Shown one piece after another: positions 8,705 through 28,236 of a DNA stretch of 64,000 nt. The DNA is from Opitutia bacterium (GTDB taxonomy: Bacteria > Verrucomicrobiota > Verrucomicrobiia > Opitutales > Opitutaceae), in assembly GCA_016187945.1 (NCBI GenBank), contig JACPIT010000009.1, positions 1-64,000 of the forward strand, given 5' to 3'. A program made the translations under genes and the position numbers. Each line of letters starts with the position of its first letter. Position 1 is the first letter of the stretch. The notes beneath the pieces are model-generated. The model had not been told where the DNA came from. It worked only from the letters and a program-made list of their open reading frames with translations, and did not search any database.

Positions 8705-8706
8705 GG

Positions 8707-11025: not shown

Positions 11026-12051
11026 ATGTCCAAGTCTGCCGTCTTGCTCCTCAATCTCGGCTCGCCCGACTCCACGTCCGTCCCTGACGTGACGCGCTAC
11101 CTGCAAGAGTTCCTCGGCGACGAACGCGTGATCGATCGCCCGGCCAACGCCTTCCTGCGCCGCCTGCTCGTCAACCGCATCATCATCCCGTCGCGCGTGA
11201 AAAAATCCGCGCACGCCTACGAGAGCATTTGGACGCCCGAAGGCTCGCCGCTGATTCTCACGAGCAAGAAAACGCAGACCGCCCTCCAGCAGCGCGTCGA
11301 AGTTCCCGTCGCGCTCGCGATGAACTACGGCAACCCGTCGATCCCCGACGTGCTCCGCCAACTCGTCGCGCAAGGCGTCACGCGCGTCCTGATGTTCCCG
11401 CAATACCCGCACTACGCGATGTCCTCGTGGGAAACCGTCGTCGTCAAAGTCCAGTGCGAGGCCGCGCAGATCGCGCCGCAACTGAAGCTCGACGGCGTGC
11501 AGCCCTACTACGGCGACGCCGACTACATCGACGCCCTCGTCGCCAGCGCGCAGCCCTACCTCGCGCAGCCCTACGACCATTTTCTCTTCAGCTACCACGG
11601 CATCCCCGTGCGCCACCTGACGAAAGCCGACAGCTCCCGCGCGCACTGCCAGGTCGTCACCGACTGCTGCACCACCTGCTCGCCCGTCCACGGCACCTGC
11701 TACAAGGCCCAAGTCACGCGCACCTCGCAGCTCTTCGCGCAACGCGCCGGCCTCGATCCCGCGAAGTGGTCGATCTCCTTCCAGTCGCGCCTCGTCGGCG
11801 AGCCGTGGCTCTCGCCCTACACCGACGCCGAGTTCGAGCGCCTCGCGAAGAGCGGCCGCAAACGCATCGTCGTCATCACGCCGGCCTTCGTCACCGATTG
11901 CCTCGAGACCCTCGAGGAGATCCGCGTCGAGGGCGCGGATGATTTCAAGGCCGCCGGCGGCGAGCAGTTCACGCACATCCCCTGCCTCAACGACCAGCCC
12001 GTCTGGATCGATTTCCTCACTCGCCGCGTCCAACGCTGGCAGCAGCAGTAG
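11026..12051 (+). CDS. hemH: Ferrochelatase
   Basis: Inserts ferrous iron into protoporphyrin IX in the last step of haem synthesis, in the cytosol or at the inner face of the membrane. The 341-residue protein begins SAVLLLNLGSPDSTSVPDV, typical of the family. The active-site histidine segment is LFSYHGIPVRHL, and TPAFVTDCLETLEEI is the conserved C-terminal glutamate motif. CCTTCSPVHGTC is a cysteine cluster (with further Cys before it) of the type seen in ferrochelatases that bind a [2Fe-2S] cluster, though those usually sit nearer the C-terminus. The stop codon TAG is the TAG of the GTAG foot of the repeat that follows. Monocistronic. Confidence 0.96.
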   Translation: MSKSAVLLLNLGSPDSTSVPDVTRYLQEFLGDERVIDRPANAFLRRLLVNRIIIPSRVKKSAHAYESIWTPEGSPLILTSKKTQTALQQRVEVPVALAMNYGNPSIPDVLRQLVAQGVTRVLMFPQYPHYAMSSWETVVVKVQCEAAQIAPQLKLDGVQPYYGDADYIDALVASAQPYLAQPYDHFLFSYHGIPVRHLTKADSSRAHCQVVTDCCTTCSPVHGTCYKAQVTRTSQLFAQRAGLDPAKWSISFQSRLVGEPWLSPYTDAEFERLAKSGRKRIVVITPAFVTDCLETLEEIRVEGADDFKAAGGEQFTHIPCLNDQPVWIDFLTRRVQRWQQQ

Positions 12052-12138
12052 GGCCGGCTTCGGCCGGCCCAAACGCCAGGACATTCGCACGCCACACGCG
12101 CGAGCCACACGCAACCGGACCGGCTGCAACCGGTCCTA
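12048..12138. repeat. REPIN-like element supplying the hemH stop codon
   Basis: GTAG foot (12048-12051, with TAG being the hemH stop), hairpin GGCCGGCTTCGGCCGGCC, then an inverted, more diverged copy ACCGGCTGCAACCGGTCC ending in CTAT. Same stem family as 29080-29171. Confidence 0.75.
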
Positions 12139-12240
12139 TCGCCCACCCGGTAAAATGATCCTCAATCTCCGCGCCGCACGGAACCTCGCCGTTTCCGCAC
12201 TCGGCAACGGCGCGCGTTTTGCTACTCGTTTCTCCGCGTC

Positions 12241-14988
12241 GTGAGCATCCCCTCGTCCCCGAGTCACACGCAGGTCACCTCGACTCCGGCCCTCGGAGCC
12301 GCCGTCCTTGTATTGGACGCGCACGGCCGCGTCGAACTCGCCAACGCCGCCGCCGCCGCACTCTGGCAGGCCCGCGCCACCGAACTCGCCGGCGATTTCC
12401 TGCCCAACCTTTTCGTCTTCGAGGTCACCTCGCGCGACCCCGACCTCGTGCAAGCACAGTGGGAGGTCGTCCAAGCCGCCGCGCTCGCCCAGCCCGTCAC
12501 GCTGCGCCTCCAACCGAAGGAAGCCGCCGCGTTCGACGCCATCGTGCGCCTCGAGCAAGCCAGCGCCGATCCCGTCCGCTATTTCGCCACGATCACGCGC
12601 TCCGCGCCCGCGCCCGCCGCGTTCGCGATTTCGCCGACCGCCTCCGCCGCGAATTCAGGCTCGGTCGCAAGTGGCGCCCACGCGACGAGCGCCGCGCCGG
12701 CCGGCGACAATTTCCTCGCGCTCCTCGCCGAGCGCAGCGCGCTCGGTTTCTTCGACCTGAATTTCGTCAAGAACGAGACTTATCTCTCGCCCGTCTGGAA
12801 GCGCATGCTCGGCTACACCGACACGAGCCTGCCCAACACCTACGAATCCTGGCTCGCGCTCATCCACCCCGACGACTCCGCCGCCGCGCCCGACAAGCTC
12901 GCCGGCCGCGCCGCGCCCGGCGGCTCGCGCCCCTTCTCGGTCGAATACCGCATGAAGCACGCGCGCGGCCACTTCGTGTGGGTGCAAGCCGTCGGCGCGC
13001 AACTCTTCGCGCCCAACGGCGCGCTCCAACGCGTCGTCGGCGCCCAAATCGACGTCACCGACCGCAAGGAACTCGAGGAAGCCTCGCTCCGCGCCGAGGA
13101 GCGCCTCAACGCCCTCGCCGAACGCGGACGCCTCGCGCTGTTCGAACTCGATTTCACCGACGGCGGCGCGAGCTGGCTCTCGCCCGCGTTCAAGGCGACG
13201 CTCGGCTTCAACGAAGCCGAGTTGCCCGACGAGCCCGAGTCGTTCCTGCGCGCGCTCCCGCCCGAGGACAGCGCCGGCGGACTCGCCGCGTTCTTCACCT
13301 CGAAACAGCCCGGCCAGCCCGTCTACTTCGACGCGCTCCGCCTGCGCCACCGCAACGGCACCGACCTCTGGGCCTACGCGGGCATCGTCCGGATCATCTC
13401 GCGCAAACGCGAACTCCAGCGCGTCCTCGGCTTCGTCGCGCCCATGCCCGAAGGCGTCGGCAACTCCGCGGGCAGCGGCGTCTCCGCCGAGCATTTTTCC
13501 GCGCTGCTCGCCGAGATTCACGAAGCCGTCCTGCTCGTCGACGCGCACGACAAAGTCGTCTTCGCCAACCACGCCGCCGAGCGCCTGCTCGGCCAGCCCG
13601 TCGAGCAGCTCGTCGGTCAGGCCGGCAGCGAAGTCTTCCGCCTCAAGCACCGCACCAGCGGCGCGCCCGGCGAAAGCCCGATCGAGAAGGCGCTCACGAC
13701 CGGCGAAGCCACGGGGCTGAACAACGAATTTTCCCTCGAGCGCGGCGCCGGGGCGACCGCTGCCGTCGTGCCGATCGTCTTCAGTTGCCGCGCCGTCTCG
13801 GACGCCGGCGGCCAATCCGCGGGCGCCGTCGTCGTGTTCCGCGACCCCGACGAGATGAGCCTCACGCCCGAGGAGCTGGTGAAGGCGAACCGCTTCGAAG
13901 CGCTCGGCCAGCTCGCCGGCGGCATCGCACACGACTACAACAACGTTCTCACGACGATCATGGGCGGCGTCTCGCTCGCCCTCGATGCGCGCGACTACTC
14001 CGGCCTCGAGAACAGCATGAAAGCCTGCGAAGCCGCCAAGGGCCTCAGCCGACAACTGCTGATGTTCTCGAAAGGCGGCACCGGCACGCGCCAAGTCATC
14101 AAAACCGCCGACTTGCTCCGCGACTCCGTGCGCATCGCCGCCTCGGGCTCCACGGTCAAAGTCGAACTCAACGCCCCGGCCGATCTCGCCACGATCCAGG
14201 TCGACCGCGCGCAGATGTTGCAGGTTTTCCAAAACCTCATCGTCAACGCGATCCAGGCGATGCCATCCAGCCAAGGCAACGTCTGGATCACCGCCGGCAA
14301 CGTCACGCTCGCCCCCGCCGAAATCCAAGGCCTCGTCGGCGGCCAATACGTCGCCATCGAAGTCCGCGACAACGGCAGCGGCATCAAGCCCGAGCACCTC
14401 GAGAAGATTTTCGACCCGTTCTTCACGACGAAGAAAACCGGCACCGGCCTCGGCCTCGCCACCGTCCTCTCGATCGTAAAACGTCACGGCGGCCAGATCG
14501 GCCTCGATACCGAGCTCGGCGTCGGCACGACCTTCACCGTTTTCCTCCCGCGCGCCGAACAGGAAACCGTCGTCGAGACACGTCGCCCGATCGCCCTGAA
14601 CTTCGCGCTCACCGGCCGCGTGCTCTTCATGGACGACGACGTCGAGATCAGCCGCCTGACCGAAGGCATGCTCGCCGGCATCGGCTACAAGGTCGACCTC
14701 GCGAAAGACGGCGAGGAAGCGATCAAGTTCTACAAGCGTTACCTGAACATCAACCGCCCCTACGACGTCGTGATCATGGACCTGACCGTGATCGGCGGCA
14801 TGGGCGGCGAAGAGTGCTTCCGCAAACTCCGCGAACTCGACCCGAACGTCCGCGCCATCGTCGCCAGCGGCTACGACAACGACGAGATGAAGCGTCAGTT
14901 CCTCGAACTGGGTTTCTGCGGCTACCTGACGAAGCCTTACCGCGTCGGCGACCTGAGCCGAGCGATCAAAGGCGTGCTCGGGACGTAG
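12241..14988 (+). CDS. Four-PAS hybrid sensor histidine kinase with receiver
   Basis: A 915-residue soluble kinase with no membrane segment. Four PAS-like domains precede the kinase (about residues 20-130, 155-280, 285-400, 415-535); the second and third are PAS/PAC, e.g. [19 protein letters not shown]. The histidine box is [19 protein letters not shown] with His564. The ATPase part shows [10 protein letters not shown] (N box), VRDNGSGI and [10 protein letters not shown] receiver domain (about 795-915) carries phosphate-accepting Asp847 in VIMDLTV and a conserved Lys in LTKPY. This is the typical phosphorelay layout of large Opitutaceae-like genomes. The start is GTG 12241. No response-regulator output gene is adjacent, so the downstream partner is unknown. 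The stop TAG abuts a GTAG-footed repeat. Confidence 0.93.
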
Positions 14989-15060: not shown

Positions 15061-15113
15061 GTCGCCGCCCGCTGATGTCTTGCAAAACACCAGCGGATGT
15101 CTTGCTTGCCCCC

Positions 15114-15362
15114 ATGCATAGCGAAACGCTCTCCCTCCGCATCTCCAAGGCCGAGATCGCCGCTCTGCGCCGGCGCGCGCGCACGGAGAAGGTTTCGCAA
15201 GGCACGCTCGTCCGCCGCGCGCTGCGGGCCTATGGCATCACGCCCGAACCCGAGGCGGCGAAGTCCGGCTTCGACGTCGTCGCGCACCTCGTGGGCGCGT
15301 GCAAGGGCGGCCCGTCCGACCTCGCCTCCAATCCGCGCCACCTCGACGGTTTCGGCCAGTGA
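15114..15362 (+). CDS. vapB: VapB-type antitoxin (ribbon-helix-helix-like)
   Basis: An 82-residue protein beginning MHSETLSLRISKAEIAALRR, a short beta strand followed by helices as in ribbon-helix-helix repressors. Its partner VapC starts inside its last codon (GTGA overlap at 15359-15362), so the two are translationally coupled. Antitoxins of this type bind the toxin and repress their own promoter. The start at 15114 fits the RHH strand; an earlier in-frame ATG at 15075 would add an unlikely leader. Confidence 0.8.
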   Translation: MHSETLSLRISKAEIAALRRRARTEKVSQGTLVRRALRAYGITPEPEAAKSGFDVVAHLVGACKGGPSDLASNPRHLDGFGQ

Positions 15363-15772
15363 AAACCTGGCTCGTCGACACCGGCCCACTCGTCGCGCTA
15401 CTCGCCGCGGCGGACCAGCACCACGCCTGGACCGTCGAACAACTGCGGCGCGCGCCCGCCACCGTGCTGACCTGCGACGCCGTCGTCACCGAGGTTGCTT
15501 TCCTGCTCAAACGTGCGGGACACGATACCGACCCGCTCTTCGGCCTGATCGAGGCCGGTTTCCTGCGCAGCGATTTCGAGCTCCACGCCGAACAGGCCGC
15601 CGTCCGCGATCTCATGCGCCGCTACCGCGACACCCCGATGTCGTTCGCCGACGCGTGCCTCGTGCGCCTGTGCGAAACCCGCTCCGATTCGTGCATCTGG
15701 ACGCTCGACCGCGATTTCACCATCTACCGCCGCAACCGCCGGCAAACGATCCCGCTCGTGGCTCCTTGGTGA
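15359..15772 (+). CDS. vapC: VapC-type PIN-domain toxin
   Basis: A 137-residue PIN-domain ribonuclease-like protein starting from GTG 15359 (VKTWLVDTGPLVALL). The acidic residues expected for a PIN active site are visible: Asp in VDTGP, Glu in VVTEVAFLL, Asp in MSFADACLV and Asp in TLDRDF. VapC toxins cleave tRNA or rRNA when released from VapB; the target here cannot be told from sequence. The GTG overlaps the antitoxin stop, so the start is well supported. Confidence 0.88.
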   Translation: MKTWLVDTGPLVALLAAADQHHAWTVEQLRRAPATVLTCDAVVTEVAFLLKRAGHDTDPLFGLIEAGFLRSDFELHAEQAAVRDLMRRYRDTPMSFADACLVRLCETRSDSCIWTLDRDFTIYRRNRRQTIPLVAPW

Positions 15773-15784
15773 GTCGAAGCCCGC

Positions 15785-16582
15785 TCAACTCGCCGTCTTC
15801 CGCTCCTCCACCCGCCCCAACAACCGCAGCATTCCATCCAAAATCGTGAGCGGGTGCGGCGGGCAGCCGGGAATGTAGAGGTCGACGGGCACCACCGTCT
15901 CGGCACCGTGCAAATGCTCTGGGTTGCCGATGAAAGGTCCGCCAGAGATCGCGCAGGCACCGACGGCGATGACGATCTTCGGCTCGGGCACCGCTTCCCA
16001 CGTCTTGCGCAGCGCGAGCTCCATGCCGCGCGACACCGGTCCCGTGATGAGCAAGCCGTCAGCGTGGCGCGGCGAGGCGACGAACTGGATGCCGAAGCGG
16101 CTCAAATCCCAACCGATCGTGTTGAGCACGTTCACGTCCGCCTCGCACGCGTTGCAGCCGCCCGCGCTTACTTGCCGCAAGCGCAGCGAGCGGCCGAACA
16201 TCCGGCGCAGTTTCTCGTCGAGCGCCGCCGCCAGCCGCAGCTCTTCCCCGCCCGGCGCGCCGAGCACGAGATCCTCGCGCCGCCGTGCGGCCATGCGATA
16301 GTCGTTCGTCGGAGTGATCGCCGCCGGCGCACACGCCGTCACGCACGCCGCGCAAAAAATACAGCGCCCAAGATCGAGCGTCATCGGTCGGCCGGGTTCG
16401 TGCGAGATCGCCTCCGTCGGACACACCGCCGCGCACTCCCCGCACCCGTCACCGCATCTCGCCGCATCGACGCGCAGCGCCCCGCCGTGCCGATCCGGCA
16501 GCGCCGGCGCGCGACCGTCCGGATAGTCCATCGTTTCGCAACCGCGCTTCAGGCGATGAGTGAGAATGTTGAAAGCGGGCAT
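15785..16582 (-). CDS. hyfI: NuoB/HyfI-like iron-sulfur subunit fused to a ferredoxin domain (Ehr-type complex)
   Basis: A 265-residue electron-transfer subunit and the last gene of the complex operon. Residues 40-90 form a two-cluster ferredoxin domain: Cys43, 47, 50, 54 and Cys74, 77, 80, 84. Residues 130-255 are the small-subunit fold of complex I and group 4 hydrogenases, with all four ligands for the proximal [4Fe-4S] cluster present (Cys143 and Cys146 in GGCNACEAD, Cys210 in VGACAISGG, Cys240 in PGCPPHPL). In E. coli the two parts are separate proteins (HyfH and HyfI), so this is a fusion. It would pass electrons to or from the hydrophilic arm. A 150-base gap with an inverted repeat separates it from the large-subunit gene. 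Confidence 0.9.
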   Translation of the reverse strand: MPAFNILTHRLKRGCETMDYPDGRAPALPDRHGGALRVDAARCGDGCGECAAVCPTEAISHEPGRPMTLDLGRCIFCAACVTACAPAAITPTNDYRMAARRREDLVLGAPGGEELRLAAALDEKLRRMFGRSLRLRQVSAGGCNACEADVNVLNTIGWDLSRFGIQFVASPRHADGLLITGPVSRGMELALRKTWEAVPEPKIVIAVGACAISGGPFIGNPEHLHGAETVVPVDLYIPGCPPHPLTILDGMLRLLGRVEERKTAS

Positions 16583-16732: not shown

Positions 16733-18214
16733 TCACAGATCGAAGCCGCAATACGACAGGTTGAAGCTCTTGTTGCAGATCGGAAAATCCGAGATCGCCT
16801 GCGAGCGCAGCGCGAGCGCGAGGCCCGTCCAGTTGTGGAACGACGGATCGACGATCTTGTAGCGGCGGAAACGCCCCGCCGCATCCGTCAGCGCCACGTG
16901 GCACACCTCGCCGCGCCAGCCTTCGACCAGCGTCACCGCGAGCATGTCGGCCGCAGGCGGCGCGACCGTATCGCGCGCATCGCCCTCCGGCGGGATCGCG
17001 AGCTGCTCGAGGAGAAATTGGCCCGACCGCTGAATCTCGAGCCAGCGCACGCGCGCACGGGCCAGCACGTCGCCGCCTGGCCAGACCGCGACCGGAATCT
17101 GCGCGAAGCGGTGCCAGCCCGCCGGATGATCGAAGCGCACGTCCCGCACGATGCCGCACGCGCGCGCCGCGAGGCCGACGAGTCCGACTTCCGTCGCCTG
17201 CGCGGTCGAAACGCCACCGACATTCTCGAAACGCGCCCGCGACGACGACGCCTCCCACAGCCACGTCGCTGCCTGCTCGACTTCCGCCAACGCCGCGGTG
17301 AGTCGCTCGCGCAGCGTTTCCAGTCGCTTCGCTTCGAGATCGAACGTGCACCCGCCCGGCCGCACGAGGCGCCGCCCGAAGCGATTGCCGCAGAGGAGTG
17401 CAGTCAGGTTGAGAAAATCGCCGCGAATCTTGCCGCAAGCCGAGGCCGTCGGGAGAAACGCCACGTCGTTCGCCAACGCCCCGAGGTCGCCCGTGTGGTT
17501 CGCCAGCCGCTCGAGTTCGAGCGCGAGCGCCCGCAGCCATTGCGCGCGCAACGGCGCCTCGGTGCCGCCGAGCGTCTCGAGCAGCGTCGCGTAAGCCGTC
17601 GCGTGCCCGATCGTCGTGTCGCCCGCGACCGCCTCGAGCTGCGGCATCGTCGCGCGATGCGGGCCGCCCGGCAGCGCCGCCTCGACGCCGCGGTGTTGGT
17701 AACCGAGCGCGATCTCGAGGTGAATGACCTCCTCGCCCGCGCATTGAAAACGGAAATGCCCCGGCTCGATCACGCCCGCGTGCACGGGGCCGACCGCCAC
17801 CTCGTGAATCTCGCTGCCGCCCACGCGGAAAAATTCGCCGTTCGCCGGCGCGCCGACGGCGGTGCGCCGCACGGGCTTCAGCCACGGATGGCCTTCGGGC
17901 ACGAGGCCGTGCTGCTCCCACACCTCGCGCTCGAACAAGTGCGCCTGCGCGTGCTGTGGCGTGAGTGCAGGATAACTGCCGCTCGTCGGCGCGCTGCGTC
18001 CGACCGCGAGCGTGTTGTCCGCATCGAACGCCAGGACCGCCACGAGCCGCGTGCCCGCGCCTTCCGGCACGCCGAACCACGCCACGAGCCGCGCGCCACG
18101 CGAAAGTTCGCCAGCCGTCAACCGCACGAATTCCTCCGCCGGCCACTCCGGCAGGTCCGCCCACGGGAGCGACGTCGCATTCGTCAGCAGGGCAAATGGT
18201 GTGAGCGAACTCAT
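16733..18214 (-). CDS. hyfG: NuoCD/HyfG-like large subunit lacking NiFe ligands (Ehr-type)
   Basis: A 493-residue fusion of a NuoC-like part (about 1-125) and a NuoD/hydrogenase large-subunit part. IHLEIALGYQHRGVEAAL matches the family. Group 4 hydrogenases hold NiFe with two CxxC pairs. At the place of the first (R-CGIC---H) this protein reads VAGDTTIGHATAY (around residues 196-208), without cysteine. Its C-terminus (ICNKSFNLSYCGFDL) has Cys480 and Cys489 but no DPCxxC. It is therefore not a hydrogenase by sequence. It fits the energy-converting hydrogenase related (Ehr) group, whose substrate is unknown. It starts at ATG 18214, overlapping the upstream stop by ATGA. Confidence 0.88.
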   Translation of the reverse strand: MSSLTPFALLTNATSLPWADLPEWPAEEFVRLTAGELSRGARLVAWFGVPEGAGTRLVAVLAFDADNTLAVGRSAPTSGSYPALTPQHAQAHLFEREVWEQHGLVPEGHPWLKPVRRTAVGAPANGEFFRVGGSEIHEVAVGPVHAGVIEPGHFRFQCAGEEVIHLEIALGYQHRGVEAALPGGPHRATMPQLEAVAGDTTIGHATAYATLLETLGGTEAPLRAQWLRALALELERLANHTGDLGALANDVAFLPTASACGKIRGDFLNLTALLCGNRFGRRLVRPGGCTFDLEAKRLETLRERLTAALAEVEQAATWLWEASSSRARFENVGGVSTAQATEVGLVGLAARACGIVRDVRFDHPAGWHRFAQIPVAVWPGGDVLARARVRWLEIQRSGQFLLEQLAIPPEGDARDTVAPPAADMLAVTLVEGWRGEVCHVALTDAAGRFRRYKIVDPSFHNWTGLALALRSQAISDFPICNKSFNLSYCGFDL

Positions 18215-19653
18215 GGCGCGGGGAAAAGTTGAGCGACGACCGCGTCCCACGACTCGCGCAGCACGTCGGGCGTAGCGAGGCCGAGCCAGAGCGAGCAACC
18301 GAGCAGCAGCAGCGGCGGCAGGATCAGTCCCGCGGTCTCGCGAAAGCGCCGGCTGCCCGCGCGCGCCGCGACGCGCGGCCGGCCGTCGACGATGCCGAAC
18401 ACCACGCGCGTCAGTCCGAAGAACGCGAAGAGCAAGCCCGCGAGAAACACCGTCGCCACACCGACGCGCCCCTCGGCAAACGCCGTGCGCACCACCAGCA
18501 GTTCGCTGAAGAACGGCCCGAACGGCGGGCACGCGGTCACGGCGAAGAGCCCCGCGACGAAGATCGCCGCGGATTGCGGCGTCAGCGCCGACATGCCGCG
18601 CACCTCGTCCATCGTGCTCGCTCCCGCCGCGCGGCGAATGTTGCCGGCACTGAGGAACAGCGCGCCCTTCGTCAGGCCGTTGTTCCAGACGTGAAACACC
18701 GCCGCCCACACGCCGACGCGGCCGAGTCCGGCGGCGACGGCGAGGATGCCCATGTGCTCGACGCTCGAGTAGGCGAGCATGCGTTTGAAGTCGCGCGTCC
18801 CGAGCAGGAACAGCGCGGCGACGATCAGCGAAAAAAGTCCGATCGCGAGCAGCGTGCGGTCCGCCACCGCGCCCTCGCCCGCCGCCGCCACGACCGCGCG
18901 CACGCGCAGCAGCGCCGTAAACGCCACCGTCGTCACGCCGCCCGCGAGCATCGCGCCGACGATGCCGGACGCCTCGCCGTAAGCGTCGGGTTTCCACGTG
19001 TGCATCGGCGCGAGGCCCATCTTCGTGCCGTAGCCGGCGAGCAACAGCACCCACGCCGCGAGCACCCACGGTCGCGAGAGCCCGGCGCCTTGCGCCGTGA
19101 GCGCGGAGAAAGTCAGATCGCCGCCGCCGCCCGTGTGCAGAGACGCGTAGCCGAGGCAGAACGAGCCGAGCAGCGAGAGCGCGATGCCCGTGCCGCCGAC
19201 GAGCAGGTATTTCCACGTCGCCTCGAACGCGCGCGGCGTGGCGTTGAAGTGCAGCAGCGGCACAGCCGCGAGCGTCAAGCCCTCGGTCGCGATCCAGAGC
19301 ACGCCGAGGTGCCGCGCCTGGTGCGCCGCGCTCATCAAGCCGAGCATCGCGAGCATCAGCGCCACGAACGTCCGGTTCGGGCGCTCCGCGCGCACTTGGA
19401 GATACGACACGCCGTAAGCCGCGCAAAACAGGAACAGCACCGAAACCATCGGCAACAGCGCCCGCGCGAGCGGATCGAAGGCGAGCCACGCACCGTTCAT
19501 CACCACCGGCGGAGCGAGGAGCAACCAGATCGACAGCACCGCGTGCACGACGCCGACCACCGGCATGAACCACGGACGCGTGCGGTCGTTCGGCCACGCC
19601 GCTGCCGCGAGCGCTCCGACGAAGGGCACGAGGATGAGGAGCAGCTCTTTCAT
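18211..19653 (-). CDS. hyfF: HyfF/NuoN-like antiporter-type membrane subunit
   Basis: A 480-residue, roughly 14-helix protein of the Mrp antiporter/NuoL-M-N family that forms ion channels in complex I and group 4 hydrogenases. Typical segments are KYLLVGGTGIALSLLG, GTKMGLAPMHTWKPDAYGEA (the conserved lysine/proline helix break), FKRMLAYSSVEHMGIL and FHVWNNGLTKGALFLSAGN. It starts at ATG 19653 (MKELLLILVP) with GAGG about nine bases ahead, and its last base pairs overlap the large-subunit start (ATGA). A 208-base gap with degenerate repeats separates it from the gene upstream. It likely couples the redox arm to proton or sodium movement. Confidence 0.9.
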   Translation of the reverse strand: MKELLLILVPFVGALAAAAWPNDRTRPWFMPVVGVVHAVLSIWLLLAPPVVMNGAWLAFDPLARALLPMVSVLFLFCAAYGVSYLQVRAERPNRTFVALMLAMLGLMSAAHQARHLGVLWIATEGLTLAAVPLLHFNATPRAFEATWKYLLVGGTGIALSLLGSFCLGYASLHTGGGGDLTFSALTAQGAGLSRPWVLAAWVLLLAGYGTKMGLAPMHTWKPDAYGEASGIVGAMLAGGVTTVAFTALLRVRAVVAAAGEGAVADRTLLAIGLFSLIVAALFLLGTRDFKRMLAYSSVEHMGILAVAAGLGRVGVWAAVFHVWNNGLTKGALFLSAGNIRRAAGASTMDEVRGMSALTPQSAAIFVAGLFAVTACPPFGPFFSELLVVRTAFAEGRVGVATVFLAGLLFAFFGLTRVVFGIVDGRPRVAARAGSRRFRETAGLILPPLLLLGCSLWLGLATPDVLRESWDAVVAQLFPAP

Positions 19654-19861: not shown

Positions 19862-20503
19862 TCATTCGCGCAGCACGGTGAGTTTGCGCGTGTCGAGCGA
19901 GTCGAACGCGCGCTGGATGCGGTCCACGATGATGCCGATGACGAACACGCCGACCGTCAAATCGAGCAGGATGCCCGCCTCGACGAGCAGCGGCGTGGAG
20001 TGAATCAGCAGCAGACCGAAAAGGTAGATGCCGTTTTCGAGGATGAGATAGCCGCAGACCTGCGAGATCGCCTTGGCGCGCCCGATCAGCAGCACGAAGC
20101 CGGTCAGCACCGACGCGATCGAGCCCGGCACGAGCAGCGTGCCCGCGTGCTCCGGCAGCAACGGCAACGCCCGCGCGAGCGCCACGGCCGCGATTGTGCC
20201 ACCGGCGCCGAGCAACAGCGACGGCACGAAGCCGATGAACGGCTCGCGTTCGCGGTCGATGTTGGCCGTGCGCAGGGCGCGCGTCAGCAGGTTCGGAATC
20301 ACGAAGCCCTTCACCGCAATCGTCGCGAGCGCGACCAGCGTCACGAGCCAGTTGAAATGCTCCATGAACAGTGGCATCACGCCGAGCACGACGCCTTGCA
20401 CCGCCATCGCGCGAATCACCGCATGCAGCCGGCCGCTGCCGAGCGCGAGGAGGTTCAGGCCCATCGCGACGCCGACGAGCAGGTTGATGGTGTCGTTGTT
20501 CAA
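19862..20503 (-). CDS. hyfE: HyfE-like membrane subunit
   Basis: A 213-residue protein with about six membrane segments (e.g. LITRAL-like loop LLTRALRTANIDREREPFIG, then helices through GYLILENGIYLFGLLL). The C-terminus corresponds to NuoK, as in E. coli HyfE. ENGIYLF carries the conserved membrane glutamate. The start is TTG 20503, read from GGGAGG (20515-20510) seven bases ahead and overlapping the upstream TGA (TTGA). Other starts would lie deep inside the upstream gene. It is part of the membrane arm. Confidence 0.86.
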   Translation of the reverse strand: MNNDTINLLVGVAMGLNLLALGSGRLHAVIRAMAVQGVVLGVMPLFMEHFNWLVTLVALATIAVKGFVIPNLLTRALRTANIDREREPFIGFVPSLLLGAGGTIAAVALARALPLLPEHAGTLLVPGSIASVLTGFVLLIGRAKAISQVCGYLILENGIYLFGLLLIHSTPLLVEAGILLDLTVGVFVIGIIVDRIQRAFDSLDTRKLTVLRE

Positions 20504-21408
20504 ACCGTGCCTCCCTTCCACGCCGCGAGCAGCGCGAACAGGCAAAGCAGAAACGCCGTGGTGAGCAGCAGCGGCACGCGCTTGAACGCCAGCCGCGCCA
20601 TGAACGACTCCGCGAGTCCCACGCACACGGTCACGACCAGCACGCCGGCCGCGAGCAGGCCCGCCGCCGCGAACGGTGCGAGGCGTCCGAGTGGCAACAC
20701 CGCTTCGCACAGCAGCAGCGCGAACAGCAGGAGCTTCATCGACGCGCCGTGCAGAATCACGGCAAACGGCGGACCGCTGTGGTCGAGCACCATCACCTCG
20801 TGCACCATCGTCAGTTCCAGGTGCGTGTTCGGATCGTCGAACGGCACGCGGGAATTCTCGGCGAGCAACACGATGAACAAACCCGCCGCGAGCAACGCCG
20901 CGCCCGCGCCCGCCGCCGGCGCGAGCATCGTCGTCAGCGTGACGCTGCCGGTGAGCACGCTGAGCGAGAGCACCGCCGTCATCACGGCCGCCTCCGCGAG
21001 CACGGCGTAACTCACCTCGCGCGCCGCGCCCATGCCTTCGAACGCCGAGCCGGTTTCCAGCGCCGCCCACGCCGTGCAAAAGCGCGCGACCGCGAGCAGG
21101 TAGACGAGCAGCAACACGTCGCCGCGAAAACTCAGCGCGCCACCCGCCGGCCCGAGCGGCAACAGCATCGCCGCTCCGAGAATCGCCACCCAGCCGATCG
21201 CCGGTCCCGCGACGAAGCCCGGCGAGGCGAGTGTGCTCAGCACGACGCCTTTTCGCCACAACCGCGCGAGGTCGTAGTAAAGTTGCAGCACCGGCGGGCC
21301 GCGCCGACCCGCGATCCAGGCCTTCACCTTGTTGATGATGCCGGGCAGCAGCGGCGCGAGCACCAGCCAGCCCGCGAGCCGCAGAAGAATTTCCAGAAAC
21401 AGCATCAT
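20500..21408 (-). CDS. hyfC: HyfC/NuoH-like membrane subunit
   Basis: A 302-residue, eight-helix protein that joins the membrane arm to the hydrophilic arm in complex I and group 4 hydrogenases. Family signatures are NKVKAWIAGRRGPPVLQLYY near the N-terminus, FEGMGAAREVSYAVLAE and ENSRVPFDDPNTHLELTMVH. It starts at ATG 21408, overlapping the upstream stop (ATGA), and is itself overlapped by hyfE. All key motifs of the quinone/junction region appear intact. Confidence 0.93.
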   Translation of the reverse strand: MMLFLEILLRLAGWLVLAPLLPGIINKVKAWIAGRRGPPVLQLYYDLARLWRKGVVLSTLASPGFVAGPAIGWVAILGAAMLLPLGPAGGALSFRGDVLLLVYLLAVARFCTAWAALETGSAFEGMGAAREVSYAVLAEAAVMTAVLSLSVLTGSVTLTTMLAPAAGAGAALLAAGLFIVLLAENSRVPFDDPNTHLELTMVHEVMVLDHSGPPFAVILHGASMKLLLFALLLCEAVLPLGRLAPFAAAGLLAAGVLVVTVCVGLAESFMARLAFKRVPLLLTTAFLLCLFALLAAWKGGTV

Positions 21409-23354
21409 CGCGCACCTCCGCTCAGCACCAGCACGCCCAGCGCGACCACGCCGCCGAGCAGGTAGAGAATGTAGGATTGCAGGTGCCCGTGCTGGAGTCG
21501 CCGCACCGCCGTCGACAAGCGCAGGATCGCGTCGCTCGCCGGACCGAGCACGTGCTCGAGCACCGTCTCCGGCACGCGCTCGACACGCCGCGCCTCGCCG
21601 GGGAACGGCCCGCGCGGCTTGTGACTTTTTCGCTCGAACCGCAAAATCCAGAAGAACCAGCCCGCCGCGATGCCCGCGAAGGAGCCGCTCGTGTATTGCA
21701 TGCGCGCCGAGGGCGCCGCGTAGCCGCAATCCCACGTCAGCCCGCGGCGCAGACCGTTGCCGAGCGCCTTGCGCCACAGCCACGCCGCCGCGACGACGAA
21801 CAAGGCCGCCAGCGCCGCGTTGACCGCGCCGAGCGTGAACAGCGGCACCGGGGCCTCGAGCGCGCCCCAAGCGGGATTCCACGCGCCCGCCGCTCGCGCC
21901 ACCGCCGGAAACAGCGCACCCGGCGCGAGCGCCACGACCACGCATCCGGCCGCGAGCACGAGCATCGGTCCGAGCATCCAAGCTCCGCTCTCATGCGCGT
22001 GCTCCGCCGCCTCGGAGCGCGGCGCTCCGGCGAAAACGGTCGCACCGGCTTTCACGAACGTCGCCAGCGCCAGCGCGCCCGACACCGCGAGGAAAATGAT
22101 CGCCGGCACCGCGGCCCACGCCGCCGGTCCGCGCGCCGTCGCCGATTCGAACAGCCCGAGATAGACGAGCCACTCGCTCACAAAACCGTTGAGCGGCGGC
22201 AGACCCGAGATCGCCGCCGCGCCGAGCGCGAAGAGCCCCGCCGTCCACGGCATCGCGCGCCAGAGTCCGCCGAGCCGGCTCATCTCGCGCGTGCCCGTCG
22301 CATGCAGCACCGAGCCGGCGCCGAAGAACAGCAGCGATTTGAACAACCCGTGGTTCCACACATGCAACAGCGCGCCCGCGAGCGCGAGTCGTCCCCACGG
22401 CGCGTCGCCCTGCCCCGCCGCCACGAGCGCGAAACCGAAGCCGACGAAAATGATCCCGACGTTCTCGACCGAGCAGTAGGCGAGCAGGCGTTTGTAGTCG
22501 TTTTGCGCGAGCGAAAACGCCACGCCGAGCAGCGCGCTCACCGCCCCGAGGCCGACGAGCACCCAGCCCAGGCTCGACGGCACCGGCAGCCAGCCGCTGA
22601 AACGCACGACGCCGTAAACGCCGACCTTCAGCGCCACACCCGACAGCATCGCCGACACGTGACTCGGCGCGCTCGAGTGGGCCGACGGCAGCCAGATGTG
22701 CAGCGGAAACAAGCCCGCTTTCAGCCCGAAACCAAACAGCGCGAGCCAGAGCAACGGCGCCAGTTCCGCACGCTCGCGCATCGGCCCGAGTTCCCAACTG
22801 CCGGTGCGCGACGCCAGCAGCGCGAAAAACGCGAAGAGCGCCAGCGTCGCCGCGTGCGACGACGCGAGATAGAGCCAGCCCGCCGCGCGCACGTCGGGCC
22901 GGTGCTTGTCGATCAGCACGAGAAAAAACGCGCAGACTGCGAACAGCTCCCAGGCGATCAGAAAATGCAGCCCGTTCGACAACACGAACACGAGAGCGAG
23001 GCTGAGCACGAGCCCACTCCACCACGGACGACCGCGCGCCGCGATTTTCTTCTGCTCGTCGCCGCTCCAATAACCGTGCGCGTAGGCCGATCCCGTGCCG
23101 CCGACCACCGCGAGCAGCGCCAGAAAAAACGCGCTGAGTCCGTCGAGCCGCAGGTGGATCGGCTCACCCGCGAGCGGGAACGCGCTGCGCCATTCCCACT
23201 CCGGCGCGCCCGCCAGCACCGACGCCGCCGCGAGCAGCGCCGCCACCGAGCCGCCGAGCATCAGCGTGAGCCACAGCCGTGGCCAGCGCGGGCCGGTGAG
23301 AACGCCCGTCGCGAGGCCCAGCAGGGCGACGGGCAGTAGCATTCCCGCCGTCAT
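21405..23354 (-). CDS. hyfB: HyfB/NuoL-like antiporter-type subunit, copy 1
   Basis: A 649-residue polytopic protein of the Mrp/NuoL family. Seen are GLFPLHIWLPSAHSSAPSHV, YKRLLAYCSVENVGIIFVGF and LLHVWNHGLFKSLLFFGAGS, the normal ion-channel helices. The C-terminus continues with a further hydrophobic stretch and a soluble loop (GYAAPSARMQYTSGSFAGI). It starts at ATG 23354, which overlaps the stop of the EIIA gene (ATGA). It is closely related to the 650-residue protein at 24135-26087, with long stretches nearly identical in DNA, so the pair is a recent or homogenised duplication. Confidence 0.92.
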   Translation of the reverse strand: MTAGMLLPVALLGLATGVLTGPRWPRLWLTLMLGGSVAALLAAASVLAGAPEWEWRSAFPLAGEPIHLRLDGLSAFFLALLAVVGGTGSAYAHGYWSGDEQKKIAARGRPWWSGLVLSLALVFVLSNGLHFLIAWELFAVCAFFLVLIDKHRPDVRAAGWLYLASSHAATLALFAFFALLASRTGSWELGPMRERAELAPLLWLALFGFGLKAGLFPLHIWLPSAHSSAPSHVSAMLSGVALKVGVYGVVRFSGWLPVPSSLGWVLVGLGAVSALLGVAFSLAQNDYKRLLAYCSVENVGIIFVGFGFALVAAGQGDAPWGRLALAGALLHVWNHGLFKSLLFFGAGSVLHATGTREMSRLGGLWRAMPWTAGLFALGAAAISGLPPLNGFVSEWLVYLGLFESATARGPAAWAAVPAIIFLAVSGALALATFVKAGATVFAGAPRSEAAEHAHESGAWMLGPMLVLAAGCVVVALAPGALFPAVARAAGAWNPAWGALEAPVPLFTLGAVNAALAALFVVAAAWLWRKALGNGLRRGLTWDCGYAAPSARMQYTSGSFAGIAAGWFFWILRFERKSHKPRGPFPGEARRVERVPETVLEHVLGPASDAILRLSTAVRRLQHGHLQSYILYLLGGVVALGVLVLSGGAR

Positions 23355-24055
23355 GTGGCCCCTTCTTTGCCCACATGCGCGGGCGCGGAATCCGCCTCGG
23401 CCGCGGCCGCGAAGATTTCCTCGTCGCTCGCGCCGCGCTCGATCAATCCGCGCAGCGGTCCGCGCGAGATCAGTCGGCTGAGTCGCGCGAGCAAGTCGAG
23501 GTGCGCGCGCGCCGACGGCGCGATGAAAAAGATCAGCCGCGTCACCGGCACGTCGTCCGCCTTCGGTTCGTCGAACGGGAGCGGATCGCGCAACAGCACG
23601 AGCGCCACGATCCCCGAGTCGCGCCCGAGTGCGATGCGCGTCGTCGGATGCGGCACGGCGTAACCGTGGCCGGTCGGCGCGATCGTCACGCCGCCCTTCG
23701 CGCGGAGGCGCTGCGCCAGCATCTGCCGCACGGGCGGCGTCGCGCCGGGCAACACGGCGACGACGCGATCGATCACATTCGGCAATTCCGCCGCCGGCAC
23801 GTCGCGCCAAATTCCGCCGGCGCGCAGCAGCGTTTCGAGTTTCCACCCGCTCGCCGCCGTCGGAGCCGCTGTGGCGAGGAAGCCCGCCTGCGCCGCGAGT
23901 CCGCGCGAGGCGGCCCAGGCGGCAACTTGCGCGCGGTCGAACAGCAGCCGCCCGCGATCGATCGTGTGCGGCAGGCCCTCGGCGCGAGCCCAGTCCTCCA
24001 CCACCTTTTCCGACACGCCGAATGATTCGGCAATCTGGACGAGGTTTAGATACAT
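23351..24055 (-). CDS. Helix-turn-helix plus PTS EIIA (PtsN-like) domain protein
   Basis: A 234-residue protein between the two hyfB copies. Residues 1-55 (MYLNLVQIAESFGVSEKVVE...) match an excisionase/MerR-like helix-turn-helix domain. Residues 75-225 match the EIIA domain of nitrogen- or fructose-type phosphotransferase proteins. The phosphate-accepting histidine is His136 in YAVPHPTTR. So a sensor domain that can be phosphorylated is joined to a possible DNA- or protein-binding domain, inside an energy-complex operon. It may tune the complex or its expression to PTS state (inference). The start is ATG 24055, since the HTH begins there. It overlaps copy 1 of hyfB by ATGA. Confidence 0.85.
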   Translation of the reverse strand: MYLNLVQIAESFGVSEKVVEDWARAEGLPHTIDRGRLLFDRAQVAAWAASRGLAAQAGFLATAAPTAASGWKLETLLRAGGIWRDVPAAELPNVIDRVVAVLPGATPPVRQMLAQRLRAKGGVTIAPTGHGYAVPHPTTRIALGRDSGIVALVLLRDPLPFDEPKADDVPVTRLIFFIAPSARAHLDLLARLSRLISRGPLRGLIERGASDEEIFAAAAEADSAPAHVGKEGAT

Positions 24056-24134
24056 GGCCGTGGATGTTATATGGCGGCGAACGGCGCGGAGCGCACGCAC
24101 GATCTTACGCCGAGTTGCTGGAGAAGCTGCGCAT

Positions 24135-26087
24135 TCATTGTCCACCTCCGCTCACGACCAGCGCCGCGAGGGCCGCGACGCCGATCAACAGATAGAGCAA
24201 ATACGATTGCAGGTGCCCGTGCTGGAGCCGCCGCACCGCGCTCGACACCCGCATCACCACGCCGCCCGCCGGCTCGACGACGTGCTCGAGCACCGTCTCG
24301 GGCGTGTGCTCGGAAAATTCCGCCGCGTCCGGCAACACCGCCTCCGGCCGCAATTCGTGGCGCTCGGGTCGGAGAATCCACGCAAACCACTCCGTGATGA
24401 TCCCCGCGAAGGAGCCCGCGGTGTATTGCATCCGCGCCGTCGGCGCCGCGTAGCCGCAATCCCACGTCACCGCGCGCCGCGCGCCGTTCTTCGCGACCTG
24501 CCGACGCAGCAGCCACACGACGACAACCGCCACGACCACGAGCACCGCGTGACACGCGCTGATCACCGCGAGTGACGGCGGCGGCGCGAAGTCGTTCCAC
24601 GCCGGATTCCACTCGCCCACCGCGCGCGCCACCGCCGGCCAGAACAGCACCGGCGCCACGCCGATCGCGAGGCACGCCGCCGCGAGCAACACCATCGGCC
24701 CGCGCATCCACGGGCCGCTTTCGTGCGCGCGCTCTGCCGCCGTCGAGCGCGGCGCGCCAAGAAAGACCACGCCGCAGACTTTGATGAAACACGCCAGCGC
24801 CAGCGCGCCGGTCATCGCGAGCAGCACGACCGCCGGGATCGACGCGAGCGCCGTGTTGTCGTGCGAGCCGACGGCATCGAACAGCCCGAGATAGACGAGC
24901 CACTCGCTCACGAAACCGTTGAGCGGCGGCAGACCCGAGATCGCCGCCGCGCCGAGCGCGAACAGCGACGCCGTCCACGGCATCGCGCGCCACAGTCCAC
25001 CGAGCCGGCTCATCTCGCGCGTGCCCGTCGCGTGCAAGACCGAGCCGGCGCCGAAGAACAGCAGCGCCTTGAACAGGCCGTGATTCCACACGTGCAGCAA
25101 TCCGCCCGCGAGCGCGAGCCGTCCCCAAGCCGTGTTGCCCTGCTGCGCCGCGACCATCGCGAAGCCGAGTCCGATGAGAATGATGCCGATGTTCTCGACG
25201 CTGTGGTAGGCGAGCAGGCGTTTCAGGTCGTGTTGTCCGAGCGCGAACGCCACGCCGAGCACCGCGCTCGCGATGCCGAGCGCCGCCACGACTGCGCCCG
25301 CGCCCGGCGGCACCGGCAGCCAGCCGGTGAAGCGCACGAGTCCGTAGACGCCGAGCTTGATCGTCACGCCCGACAGCACCGCCGACACGTGACTCGGGGC
25401 GTTCGCGTGCGCCGAGGGCAGCCAGATGTGCAGCGGAAACAAGCCGGCCTTCACGCCGAAGCCGAACAGCGCCAGCCAGAACAACGGCGCCAGCTCCGCG
25501 CGTTCGCGCATCGGCCCGAGTTCCCAGCTCCCCGTGCGCGCCGCGAGGATTGCGAAGAACGCGAACAGCGCCAGCACCGCGGCGTGCGACGCGCCGAGAT
25601 AGAGCCAACCCGCCGCGCGCACCTCCGCGCGCCGCCGGTCGAGCGTCACGAGGAAAAACGCCGCCAGCGTGAACAGTTCCCAGCCGACGAGAAACTGCAG
25701 CCCATGCGCCGACACCAGCACGGCCACGAGGCTCACGAGCAAGACGCTCCACCACACGCGCCCTTGTCGTGCCGACGCCGGATGCGCGCGCTGCGGCCAA
25801 TAGCCGTGCGCGTAGGCCGCGCCCGCCCCGCCGACCACCGCCACGAGAGCGAGGAACAGCGCGCTCACCGCATCGAAGCGCAGGCACAGCACGTCGCCCG
25901 CGACGAAAAACTCGCTGCGCCACACCCACGCCGGCGCGAAACCGCCGAGCACGTTCACCGCCGCCGCCAGCGCGAGCGCGCAACCGCCAAGCGTCAGCGC
26001 GAGCCAGGTGCGCGGCAGCCAATTCCCGACCACGAGCCCGGCCGACAGGCCGAGCATCGCCGCGACGAGCACCACGCCAGAGCTCAT
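24135..26087 (-). CDS. hyfB: HyfB/NuoL-like antiporter-type subunit, copy 2
   Basis: A 650-residue paralogue of the protein at 21405-23354 and the first gene of the operon. It has the same landmarks: GLFPLHIWLPSAHANAPSHV, LKRLLAYHSVENIGIILIGL and LLHVWNHGLFKALLFFGAGS. It starts at ATG 26087 (MSSGVVLVAAML). Complex I has three antiporter-type subunits; with hyfF this complex also would have three, two of them near copies. An 80-base gap separates it from the EIIA gene. Confidence 0.92.
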   Translation of the reverse strand: MSSGVVLVAAMLGLSAGLVVGNWLPRTWLALTLGGCALALAAAVNVLGGFAPAWVWRSEFFVAGDVLCLRFDAVSALFLALVAVVGGAGAAYAHGYWPQRAHPASARQGRVWWSVLLVSLVAVLVSAHGLQFLVGWELFTLAAFFLVTLDRRRAEVRAAGWLYLGASHAAVLALFAFFAILAARTGSWELGPMRERAELAPLFWLALFGFGVKAGLFPLHIWLPSAHANAPSHVSAVLSGVTIKLGVYGLVRFTGWLPVPPGAGAVVAALGIASAVLGVAFALGQHDLKRLLAYHSVENIGIILIGLGFAMVAAQQGNTAWGRLALAGGLLHVWNHGLFKALLFFGAGSVLHATGTREMSRLGGLWRAMPWTASLFALGAAAISGLPPLNGFVSEWLVYLGLFDAVGSHDNTALASIPAVVLLAMTGALALACFIKVCGVVFLGAPRSTAAERAHESGPWMRGPMVLLAAACLAIGVAPVLFWPAVARAVGEWNPAWNDFAPPPSLAVISACHAVLVVVAVVVVWLLRRQVAKNGARRAVTWDCGYAAPTARMQYTAGSFAGIITEWFAWILRPERHELRPEAVLPDAAEFSEHTPETVLEHVVEPAGGVVMRVSSAVRRLQHGHLQSYLLYLLIGVAALAALVVSGGGQ

Positions 26088-26421: not shown

Positions 26422-28236
26422 CTACCCGCGCGCGCCGTCGTTGTGCCCGAGAATGCGATTCGCGCGCGCGAGGGCATCGGCGATCTCGCGGCGCGCGGAG
26501 GCGAGTTGCTCCTTCTCCGCGCGCAGCGCCTCGGCCGAATCCGGCGGATTGGCCGGCGGCGGCAGACCGAGAATCTCTCTCGCCCGCGCGAGCGCAGCGT
26601 CGATGTGCGGGCAAACGTTCTCGCGGCCGAGTCGGTCGAGAAAACCGGCCTTCTCCATCACGAAGAGCGGCTGCGTGTGCGGCGCGCTCAGAATCAGGTG
26701 CTTTCCTTTCGCGCGCAGCTTCGCGTGCAGATCCTCGAGCGCCTGCAGGCCCGTCGCGTCCATCGCGAGCACCTTGCGGATGCGCAGGATCAGGATGTCC
26801 GGCTCGTGCTTCGCCCGCTTCAGCTCGTCGTCGAGTTTGTCGACCACGCCGAAAAAGAACGCTCCGAACACGCGGAACACGAGCACGCCCTCGGGGATTT
26901 CCTTGCCGACGAGCGAGTGGTGCGAGCCCTCGGTGTCGGAGCTCTCGTCGACCGCCGTGATCTGCGAAGTCTCGGAAATGCGCTTCACCATCAACAACGC
27001 CGCGAGCACGACGCCGACTTCGACCGCCACGGTCAGGTCGGCAAAAATCGTCAGCGCAAAAGTCGTGATGAACACCAGCGAGTCGCTCAGCGGCCAGCGG
27101 CCGAGGCGGACGAGCTGTTTCCACGCAACCATGCGAAACGCCGCGACGACGAGGATGGCGCTGAGCGTCGCCAGCGGGATATGCACCGCGAGCGGCGCCG
27201 CCGCGACGAGCACGAGCGCGAGCAGGCCCGAGTGGACGAGACCCGCCACCGGCGTGCGGCCGCCCGCACGGACGTTGCCGATCGAGCGGGCGACGGCGCC
27301 CGTCACCGGGATGCAGCCGAAGAGCGGTCCGACGAAATTCGCCACGCCCTGCCCGATCAGCTCCTGGTTGGAATCGTGGCGATCGTCGAGCATGCCGTCG
27401 GTCACGACCGCGCACAGCAGCGCCTGCATCGAGACGAGCAGCGCGATCGTGAATGCCGGCTGCACGAGCGCCCGCAACGTTCCGAGGTCGGCGTGCGGCA
27501 AGTGAAAGTCCGGCCAGGTCGAACCGAAGCCGCCGAATTGCGAGCCGATGGTCGCGAGGTGCCATTTCTCGCCGAGACCGAACACCGCCACGACGACCGT
27601 CGCCACGAGCAGACCGACCATCGAGCCCGGCACGTAGCGACCGAGCCGCGACGGCCAGAGCGCGATCACGAGCAGCGAAGCCACCGCGAAGCCGACCGTC
27701 GGCCAGTGGATCGCATCGAGGTGTTCGCCGAGCACGTGCATCTTGCCCGCGAAGTCGACCGGCAGCTTGTCCACTTGGAGGCCGAGGAAATTCTTGATCT
27801 GCGAACTGAGGATGAGAATCGCGATGCCCTTGGTGAAGGCGCGCGACACCGGATACGGAATGAAACGGATGACCGACCCAAGCCGCGCGAGGCCCATGAT
27901 GGCAAGCATCACGCCGGCGATCATCGTGCACAGGATCAGACCGTCGGCGCCGTAACCTTGCACGACGCCGTAAGTGATGACGACGAACGCGCCCGTCGGT
28001 CCGCCGATCTGCACGCTCGAACCGCCGAGCGCCGCAATGAGCGCCCCGCCGATGATGGCCGTGAACAGCCCCTGCTCCGGCTTCACGCCCGAGGCGATCG
28101 CGAACGCGATCGAGAGCGGGAACGCCATCACCATGACGTTCACGCCCGCCATGAAATCACCGCGGAGACGGGCCTTCGAGTAGCCTTTCAGCGCCTCGAA
28201 CAATTTCGGACGAAAACTAAAAATCGATGCGTTCAT
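26422..28236 (-). CDS. SulP-family anion transporter with STAS domain
   Basis: A 604-residue inner-membrane carrier for sulfate, bicarbonate or a similar anion. The membrane part starts with RGDFMAGVNVMVMAFPLSIA and the hallmark GPTGAFVVITYG, and continues for about 12-14 helices. A STAS domain follows (about residues 425-545), with ILRIRKVLAMDATGLQALED matching the phosphate-binding loop region of anti-sigma-antagonist folds. The C-terminal 60 residues are a charged helical tail. ATG 28236 is chosen because the transporter fold begins right after it; ATG 28257 is possible. Substrate cannot be told from sequence. Confidence 0.92.
   Translation of the reverse strand: MNASIFSFRPKLFEALKGYSKARLRGDFMAGVNVMVMAFPLSIAFAIASGVKPEQGLFTAIIGGALIAALGGSSVQIGGPTGAFVVITYGVVQGYGADGLILCTMIAGVMLAIMGLARLGSVIRFIPYPVSRAFTKGIAILILSSQIKNFLGLQVDKLPVDFAGKMHVLGEHLDAIHWPTVGFAVASLLVIALWPSRLGRYVPGSMVGLLVATVVVAVFGLGEKWHLATIGSQFGGFGSTWPDFHLPHADLGTLRALVQPAFTIALLVSMQALLCAVVTDGMLDDRHDSNQELIGQGVANFVGPLFGCIPVTGAVARSIGNVRAGGRTPVAGLVHSGLLALVLVAAAPLAVHIPLATLSAILVVAAFRMVAWKQLVRLGRWPLSDSLVFITTFALTIFADLTVAVEVGVVLAALLMVKRISETSQITAVDESSDTEGSHHSLVGKEIPEGVLVFRVFGAFFFGVVDKLDDELKRAKHEPDILILRIRKVLAMDATGLQALEDLHAKLRAKGKHLILSAPHTQPLFVMEKAGFLDRLGRENVCPHIDAALARAREILGLPPPANPPDSAEALRAEKEQLASARREIADALARANRILGHNDGARG

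Follow-up and report, generated by a model that had tools for sequence, protein, structure and literature searches.

A conserved replacement for the NiFe site in an Ehr complex of an Opitutaceae bacterium, with PTS-type and SulP genes as operon partners

The question raised by this locus is what a complex built like a group 4 hydrogenase may do when its large subunit has no ligands for the NiFe site. The window analyzed is a stretch of 64,000 nucleotides from an Opitutia bacterium (contig JACPIT010000009.1). The coordinates 16733–18214 given for the large subunit by the original prediction were right, the gene being read on the minus strand. According to Pfam and NCBIfam, the protein is a NuoC-like N-terminal part fused to a part similar to NuoD and hydrogenase large subunits. 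Its gene is the eighth of nine on the same strand, the SulP gene being the first and the small subunit gene the last:

26422–28257, minus strand: SulP/STAS anion transporter (ATG at 28257 or 28236; the open reading frame reaches 28317)
24135–26087, minus strand: first HyfB-like antiporter subunit (HyfB1)
23351–24145, minus strand: HTH_17 plus PTS_EIIA_2 protein (GTG at 24145 or ATG at 24055; phospho-acceptor His166 in the 264 aa form)
21405–23354, minus strand: second HyfB-like antiporter subunit (HyfB2; ATG at 23354; 65% identical to HyfB1)
20500–21408, minus strand: HyfC/NuoH-like membrane anchor, with the conserved acidic chain kept
19862–20503, minus strand: HyfE-like membrane subunit (TTG at 20503)
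18211–19653, minus strand: HyfF-like antiporter subunit (ATG at 19653; the open reading frame reaches 19719)
16733–18214, minus strand (read from 18214 to 16733): EhrL/HyfG-like large subunit (ATG, 493 aa, without NiFe ligands)
17600–17626, minus strand: AGDTTIGHA, residues 197–205 of the large subunit, standing for CGxCxxxH (CGICGFAH in HycE)
16736–16774, minus strand: NKSFNLSYCGFDL, residues 481–493 of the large subunit, replacing the DPCxxC end and stopping at the end of HycE DPCxxCTDR
15785–16582, minus strand: EhrS/HyfI-like small subunit (N-terminal 2x[4Fe-4S] ferredoxin domain, 12 Cys present)

The SulP gene lies 334 bp upstream of that of HyfB1, and the HyfF gene overlaps the start of the large subunit gene by 4 bases. 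Since several neighbors overlap by a few bases, the operon is likely to give one transcript; a promoter scan yielded no sigma-70-like site (0 found, 0.5 expected). HyfB2, HyfC and HyfE were analyzed with 21, 11 and 24 extra residues, respectively, upstream of plausible starts, and the domain calls were unaffected.

In the alignment to E. coli HycE, the four cysteine ligands of a [NiFe] hydrogenase (C241, C244, C531 and C534) were all substituted, their positions being taken by A197, T200, S487 and G490. The large subunit terminates in ...FPICNKSFNLSYCGFDL, and DPCxxC is absent. So, the loss of both CxxC pairs, the presence of AGDTTIGHA opposite HycE CGICGFAH, and a C-terminus without DPCxxC, which had all been claimed from the sequence, were borne out. 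A C-terminal maturation tail is also lacking: the protein ends at the position of HycE R537, and HycE is 32 residues longer. It is presumably at this position that the maturation protease cleaves the HycE tail.

The same features were searched for in 98 relatives of at least 440 aa, coming from 96 loci. Eighty of these loci were found by family-conserved peptides and are a near set, the best 80 of at least 572; among those best 80, the nearest matches with a name came from a MAG of Lacunisphaera (81%) and one of an uncultured Opitutaceae member (78%). The counts exclude the two fragments in L069 and L072 as well as a true [NiFe] protein encoded in L100. Neither CGxCxxxH nor DPCxxC was present in any of the 98 relatives (0/98). 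An xGD motif occupied the position of CGxCxxxH in 97 of them, with L050 as the exception, and the NKS-type motif that replaces the C-terminal one was the exact protein end in all 98, the HycE tail being absent. Loss of the motifs in 98/98 relatives, together with the sharing of those that replace them, indicates that a sequencing error at the motif, considered in the original prediction as a possible refutation, did not occur. Another refutation, a separate set of cysteines filling the site, found no clean counterpart: C480 and C489 are near the old site and are not universal. In an alignment of 61 Ehr proteins (that of the window plus 60 drawn from the 98 relatives), used also for the pocket counts below, C480 was Cys in 48/61 and C489 in 51/61 rows, the remainder being Asn, Ile, Val or Thr, or else Ser or Ala.

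The class of the complex was studied with an alignment and a tree of 60 chosen large subunits: that of the window with 30 close relatives, four of a second type, eight from plasmids, five [NiFe] group 4 proteins with ligands and 12 NuoD-like proteins. The 43 ligand-less hydrogenase-like proteins, including the Geobacter and Geomonas sequences, formed one Ehr clade (100/100), which was sister to E. coli HycE/HyfG (100/98) with the three other [NiFe] proteins outside; the NuoD set was apart from group 4 plus Ehr (100/99). On this topology, the loss of the four cysteines took place along the Ehr branch and was independent of complex I. The large subunit thus falls where it had been predicted, in the Ehr clade and outside NuoD, and the complex is an Ehr (energy-converting-hydrogenase-related) member of the complex I superfamily: it is a relative of group 4 [NiFe] hydrogenases, lacks the CxxC pairs, and has antiporter-like subunits and a NuoH-like anchor in one operon, while I149 and G198 stand in the places of the quinone His and Tyr of NuoD. 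Ehr is reportedly dealt with in works of Coppi (2005) and Marreiros et al. That its substrate is not known, as also stated beforehand, agrees with PMC10284858, PMC10432482 and PMC7894505, where the function is called unknown or untested in the excerpts available (the PMC-numbered papers are cited here from such excerpts).

One of the closest known systems is the Geobacter/Geomonas complex (ehrABCDLS), named Ehr in PMC7894505 for Geobacter: the large subunits are 53–57% identical (Geobacter argillaceus, Geomonas), and the replacement motifs and the subunit set match. The window differs from it in the co-encoded SulP, in the EIIA gene placed between two HyfB genes, and in that those two HyfB are 65% alike. 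An Ehr of Methylacidiphilum (PMC6688271) is known here by description only. E. coli HycE/HyfG is the sister group, with HycE as the best solved structure; the proton path, the β1-β2 Glu and the canopy Arg are kept in Ehr, which differs by the absence of NiFe cysteines and of the C-terminal tail, and by Asn instead of the canopy Asp. With complex I NuoD, Ehr shares the fold and proton-path residues, but it lacks the quinone His and Tyr and lies on a separate tree branch. Pyrococcus furiosus MBS resembles Ehr in having lost NiFe, in its antiporter modules and in the absence of quinone ligands; the differences, as far as PMC7684303 describes MBS in the text available, are that Ehr keeps the E21-equivalent Glu and the proximal CxxC, and that Ehr lost four cysteines and MBS two.

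Concerning the site left by NiFe, HycE residues E193, R478, H284 and E437 are kept in 61/61 Ehr proteins (as E150, R434, H240 and E393 in the window) and R395 in 60/61 (R351); the proton route and canopy residues of the hydrogenase are those named in PMC9474812. In HycE numbering, C241 is replaced by Ala or Ser in 59/61, C244 by Thr or Ser in 56/61, and C531 and C534 by Ser and Gly, respectively, in 61/61. The canopy Asp (D529), given as strictly conserved in the available text of PMC9474812, corresponds to N485 and is Asn in 57, Ser in two and Asp in two of the 61. Besides, D199 (60/61) and D456, N481 and K482 (61/61 each) are fixed in Ehr without a HycE counterpart, the quinone His and Tyr of complex I (E. 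coli NuoCD H224 and Y273) are I149 and G198 in 61/61, and 46 columns in total are invariant over the 61 proteins, which come from many phyla. Judging by these counts, the pocket is rebuilt rather than merely decayed. Since it keeps the E21-type Glu and the proximal-cluster CxxC and lacks both the NiFe cysteines and the quinone His/Tyr, it differs from the pockets of hydrogenase, MBS and complex I alike. For the large subunit, an AlphaFold model based on 55 rows had a mean pLDDT of 86.2, with values below 50 at residues 117–165 and 489–493, stretches to which the β1-β2 Glu and the last residues of the C-terminal motif belong; due to this low pLDDT across part of the pocket, what is said of it rests on the sequence alignment only. 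The best solved match by Foldseek was HycE (7z0s_E).

As a separate observation, six cysteines of the large subunit (C158, C260, C275, C438, C480 and C489) are each common in the main Ehr type (45–51 of the 61 rows) and mostly absent from the type II and plasmid types. Together they might make up an additional redox or metal site.

The small subunit has all 12 cysteines for three [4Fe-4S] clusters, two of ferredoxin type and the proximal one, in agreement with the earlier claim that all the iron-sulfur ligands are kept; these columns are Cys in 77–92 of 93 aligned rows. The proximal cluster has the hydrogenase-like CxxC spacing (C143-x2-C146), and so the shortened loop that frees one iron in MBS is absent. 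In the membrane part, HyfB Glu137, Lys213 and Lys244, HyfF Glu146, Lys233 and Lys351, and the acidic chain of HyfC, which from family knowledge we take to be the pump residues, are each conserved in at least 80% of 93 rows. Omega values of 0.06–0.34 were obtained for the nine genes between the window and three same-genus relatives (27 comparisons). By the omega values and the pump residues, the complex is under selection and has what it needs to pump.

We give about an even chance to a redox-driven ion pump that is fed by ferredoxin and has a new pocket for its substrate. Ferredoxin would probably deliver electrons to the pair of [4Fe-4S] clusters in the domain fused to the small subunit, from which they would cross the proximal cluster to a small substrate in the former NiFe site. 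The energy would pass through the charge chain of HyfC to the three antiporter-like subunits (HyfB twice and HyfF), which would move H+ and/or Na+/K+. The HTH-EIIA protein, which the PTS of the cell could phosphorylate, would probably gate the complex or its transcription, and, in the family of the window, the SulP permease would probably use the gradient or supply an anion. The donor, substrate, ion, direction and regulation of such a pump are what we infer from features read in the sequence, namely subunit make-up, ligand loss, clusters, pump residues, pocket and partner genes. With respect to the donor, the ferredoxin domain fused to the small subunit suggests ferredoxin. POR-family matches (below 1e-70) occurred in 13/13 genomes with Ehr vs. 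21/44 others, a weak link, given that the cut-off was chosen with the data in view and that these genomes are relatives of one another.

Other readings of the complex were weighed against the ferredoxin-fed pump. A ferredoxin:quinone oxidoreductase, with a pocket binding quinone in a manner unlike complex I, is conceivable but unlikely: the NuoH-like anchor, a subunit set typical of the superfamily, and the canopy Arg and proton path common with complex I (PMC9474812) are in its favor, but the residues equivalent to NuoCD H224 and Y273 are replaced, and invariantly so (I149 and G198, 61/61), and the proximal cluster has a CxxC (C143, C146) instead of the adjacent cysteines of complex I (PMC7684303). 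It is quite unlikely that the complex is an ion transporter with no catalysis of its own, in which the redox arm would be a sensor or scaffold, EIIA would exert control and SulP would move the anion. This would account for the loss of all metal and quinone ligands next to pump residues that stay, and for transport-related partner genes, but not for the keeping of all the cluster cysteines, nor for that of a proton path to the pocket, needless in an idle arm. We consider distinctly improbable a formate-linked Ehr on which a formate dehydrogenase would dock, as was proposed from gene content for Riflemargulisbacteria (FDH-Ehr, PMC6349859). The abundance of Ehr subunits in formate-grown Geobacter sulfurreducens (PMC7894505) is consistent with it, but no formate dehydrogenase was annotated in four annotated plasmid loci, and none was recognized among the recurrent neighbors, whose clustering was noisy.

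Sulfur reduction catalyzed by a cluster, as in MBS, seems highly improbable. MBS also lacks the equivalents of the quinone ligands H38/Y87, but in it the MbsJ loop is shortened, by which one iron is freed, and the E21 equivalent is missing, according to the available text of PMC7684303, while Ehr keeps the CxxC spacing and the invariant Glu. We find it scarcely credible that the complex is a decaying, nonfunctional relic of a hydrogenase. The metal site was indeed lost, and the Geobacter Ehr is stated to be nonfunctional in the excerpt of PMC13194489, but the low omega (0.06–0.34 in 27 comparisons) and the kept pump residues argue against that statement, as do the 46 columns invariant in all 61 proteins, from a wide range of phyla, and the detection of Ehr subunits by proteomics (PMC7894505). 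A true [NiFe] hydrogenase, with an error in the motif or with other cysteines as ligands, has negligible probability in our opinion: C480 and C489 are near the site and common, and HypD is present in the genome, but CGxC and DPCxxC are absent in the 98/98 relatives counted, the two cysteines are not universal, and 5/13 Ehr genomes have no HypD match.

The presence of HypD runs against another expectation of the original prediction, namely that an absence of hyp maturation genes would support the loss of NiFe. Two [NiFe] large subunits that do carry CGxC and DPCxxC are also encoded in the window's genome, the first at some 6 kb from HypD and the second on contig C12. HypD was found in 8/13 Ehr genomes and in 7/44 others. 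The five Ehr genomes with no HypD match (G017, G018, G022, G026 and G033) indicate that the complex occurs without maturation genes; one of them, G017, consists of two contigs and has a listed completeness of 100%.

The HTH-EIIA protein, whose 264 aa form contains a PTS_EIIA_2 domain with the phospho-acceptor His, as in the EIIANtr type, was detected in 61/96 Ehr loci with a profile started from that of the window. Where the DNA extends 8 kb or more upstream of the large subunit (74 loci), the EIIA gene was upstream, on the same strand and within 12 kb in 52; in two more it was more distant (L038) or turned round (L112), and in 20 it was absent (five plasmid and 15 non-plasmid loci). The 35/96 loci in which it was not found include all five plasmid loci, and many of the others have short flanks; in the Geobacter-type loci with double HyfB, it may lie beyond the covered DNA. 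In the column of the phospho-acceptor, 67 rows have a letter, which is His in 65 of them and Cys in the other two. Of five distant examples, Pfam recognized the two domains together in four; in the fifth, which belongs to a type II operon, it recognized EIIA alone. Orthologs below E 1e-80 occurred in 11/57 related genomes, exactly the 11 with a type I Ehr large subunit; because the gene sits in the operon, this coincidence is not independent of the operon. Persistence of the protein at 21–32% identity in distant loci does provide independent support. Weak matches (27–32% identity) were also seen in G019, G026, G036 and G056, and PTS enzyme I in 53/57 genomes, including that of the window.

A precedent for EIIA action on a cation/proton antiporter is PtsN of E. 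coli, which when unphosphorylated binds and inhibits the K+/H+ antiporter YcgO (PMC11808508); unlike Ehr, YcgO is a CPA1 antiporter. An action of EIIA on Ehr is only what we infer. To our knowledge, E. coli PtsN has no HTH domain. Among the literature listed, covered by titles and abstract starts and with few subscription journals, no coupling of EIIA to Ehr was found, and absence in print is not claimed. A more specific version of the pump is tentative and rather doubtful: phosphorylation of HTH-EIIA, in response to the PEP/pyruvate or nitrogen state, would switch the ferredoxin-driven Ehr, a pocket made of K482, R434, N481, N485, S487, T200 and D199 would bind a polar, perhaps anionic, substrate, and SulP would import the anion in the window's family.

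Concerning SulP, a same-strand gene just upstream of the operon was present in 8/96 loci, whose sources are the genus or family of the window or a Verrucomicrobia MAG; two of the eight have type II operons. In L076, L104 and L108 there were SulP matches of only 26–29%, elsewhere in the locus. SulP proteins of at least 59% identity, a threshold chosen with the list in view (the next match had 55%), occurred in 10/13 genomes with Ehr of either type vs. 1/44 others (G003, 82%). The operon regions of G017, G018 and G033 have no SulP. The protein scored below the NCBIfam cut-offs for BicA (259 bits vs. 880) and DauA (454 of 614). Antisense ORFs, the DNA being rich in GC, blurred an unsupervised clustering of neighbors; the clusters listed as recurring in more than five loci were subunits, mixed sets and the SulP set (8 loci). 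No paper in the literature listed (titles and abstract starts; available text of PMC2621215) couples SulP to a Hyf-like complex, with no claim that none exists in print.

Two further linkages were tried and rejected. A CO2-uptake device, made of SulP and the complex and linked to RuBisCO, gained no support from RuBisCO-domain matches in 4/13 Ehr genomes vs. 8/44 others, a count that includes possible RuBisCO-like proteins. Nitrogenase matches (3/13 Ehr genomes, G017, G022 and G026, vs. 3/44 others) showed no clear link.

Ehr as a kind of complex was already known. What is added here is the conserved replacement pocket, the PTS-type partner of many but not all lineages and the family-specific SulP; neither these nor the duplicated HyfB figured in the original prediction. 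Ehr is spread over many phyla, from Geobacter to nitrifiers, and on the present evidence its proteins are maintained and have a conserved pocket of their own, rather than being broken hydrogenases. The EIIA and SulP neighbors may hint at the function of the complex, and the PTS-kind partner and, in one family, the anion transporter are handles for experiments. The Ehr substrate, once found, would extend the chemistry of the complex I superfamily beyond protons, quinone and sulfur. PTS gating of the pump, if true, would tie a phosphotransfer relay directly to this superfamily.

Some minor observations concern other loci. The large subunits of Ehr types I and II are about 36% identical; both types occur together in L038 (1–17053, nested in one gene run, G015) and in tandem in L061 (4043–19916), and the Variovorax plasmid L049 carries two Ehr sets about 9 kb apart. 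The second type, seen in L040 (8037–19764) and L041 (5171–16743), has the C-terminus NKSFNLSYSGTDR and two HyfF-like genes; just upstream in both there are a SulP about 59% like that of the window and a divergent EIIA protein. In L100 (17848–21255), from a Phycisphaerales MAG, a true group 4 [NiFe] hydrogenase (CGIC, DPCFSC) lies 5–6 kb from the Ehr operon. The 82% SulP of G003 (contig C20:11380–13125), in a genome with no Ehr match, is beside another SulP on the opposite strand and is possibly a remnant of a lost Ehr operon.

Within the window, positions 15075–15772 encode ribbon-helix-helix and PIN-domain proteins (Pfam), likely a VapBC-type toxin-antitoxin pair, convergent to the small subunit gene. 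Ferrochelatase and then a PAS/histidine kinase/response regulator hybrid are encoded at 11026–14988 on the plus strand, towards the operon. A TraG/TraD-type coupling protein, encoded at 6392–8773, is indicative of a conjugative element or one for type IV secretion.
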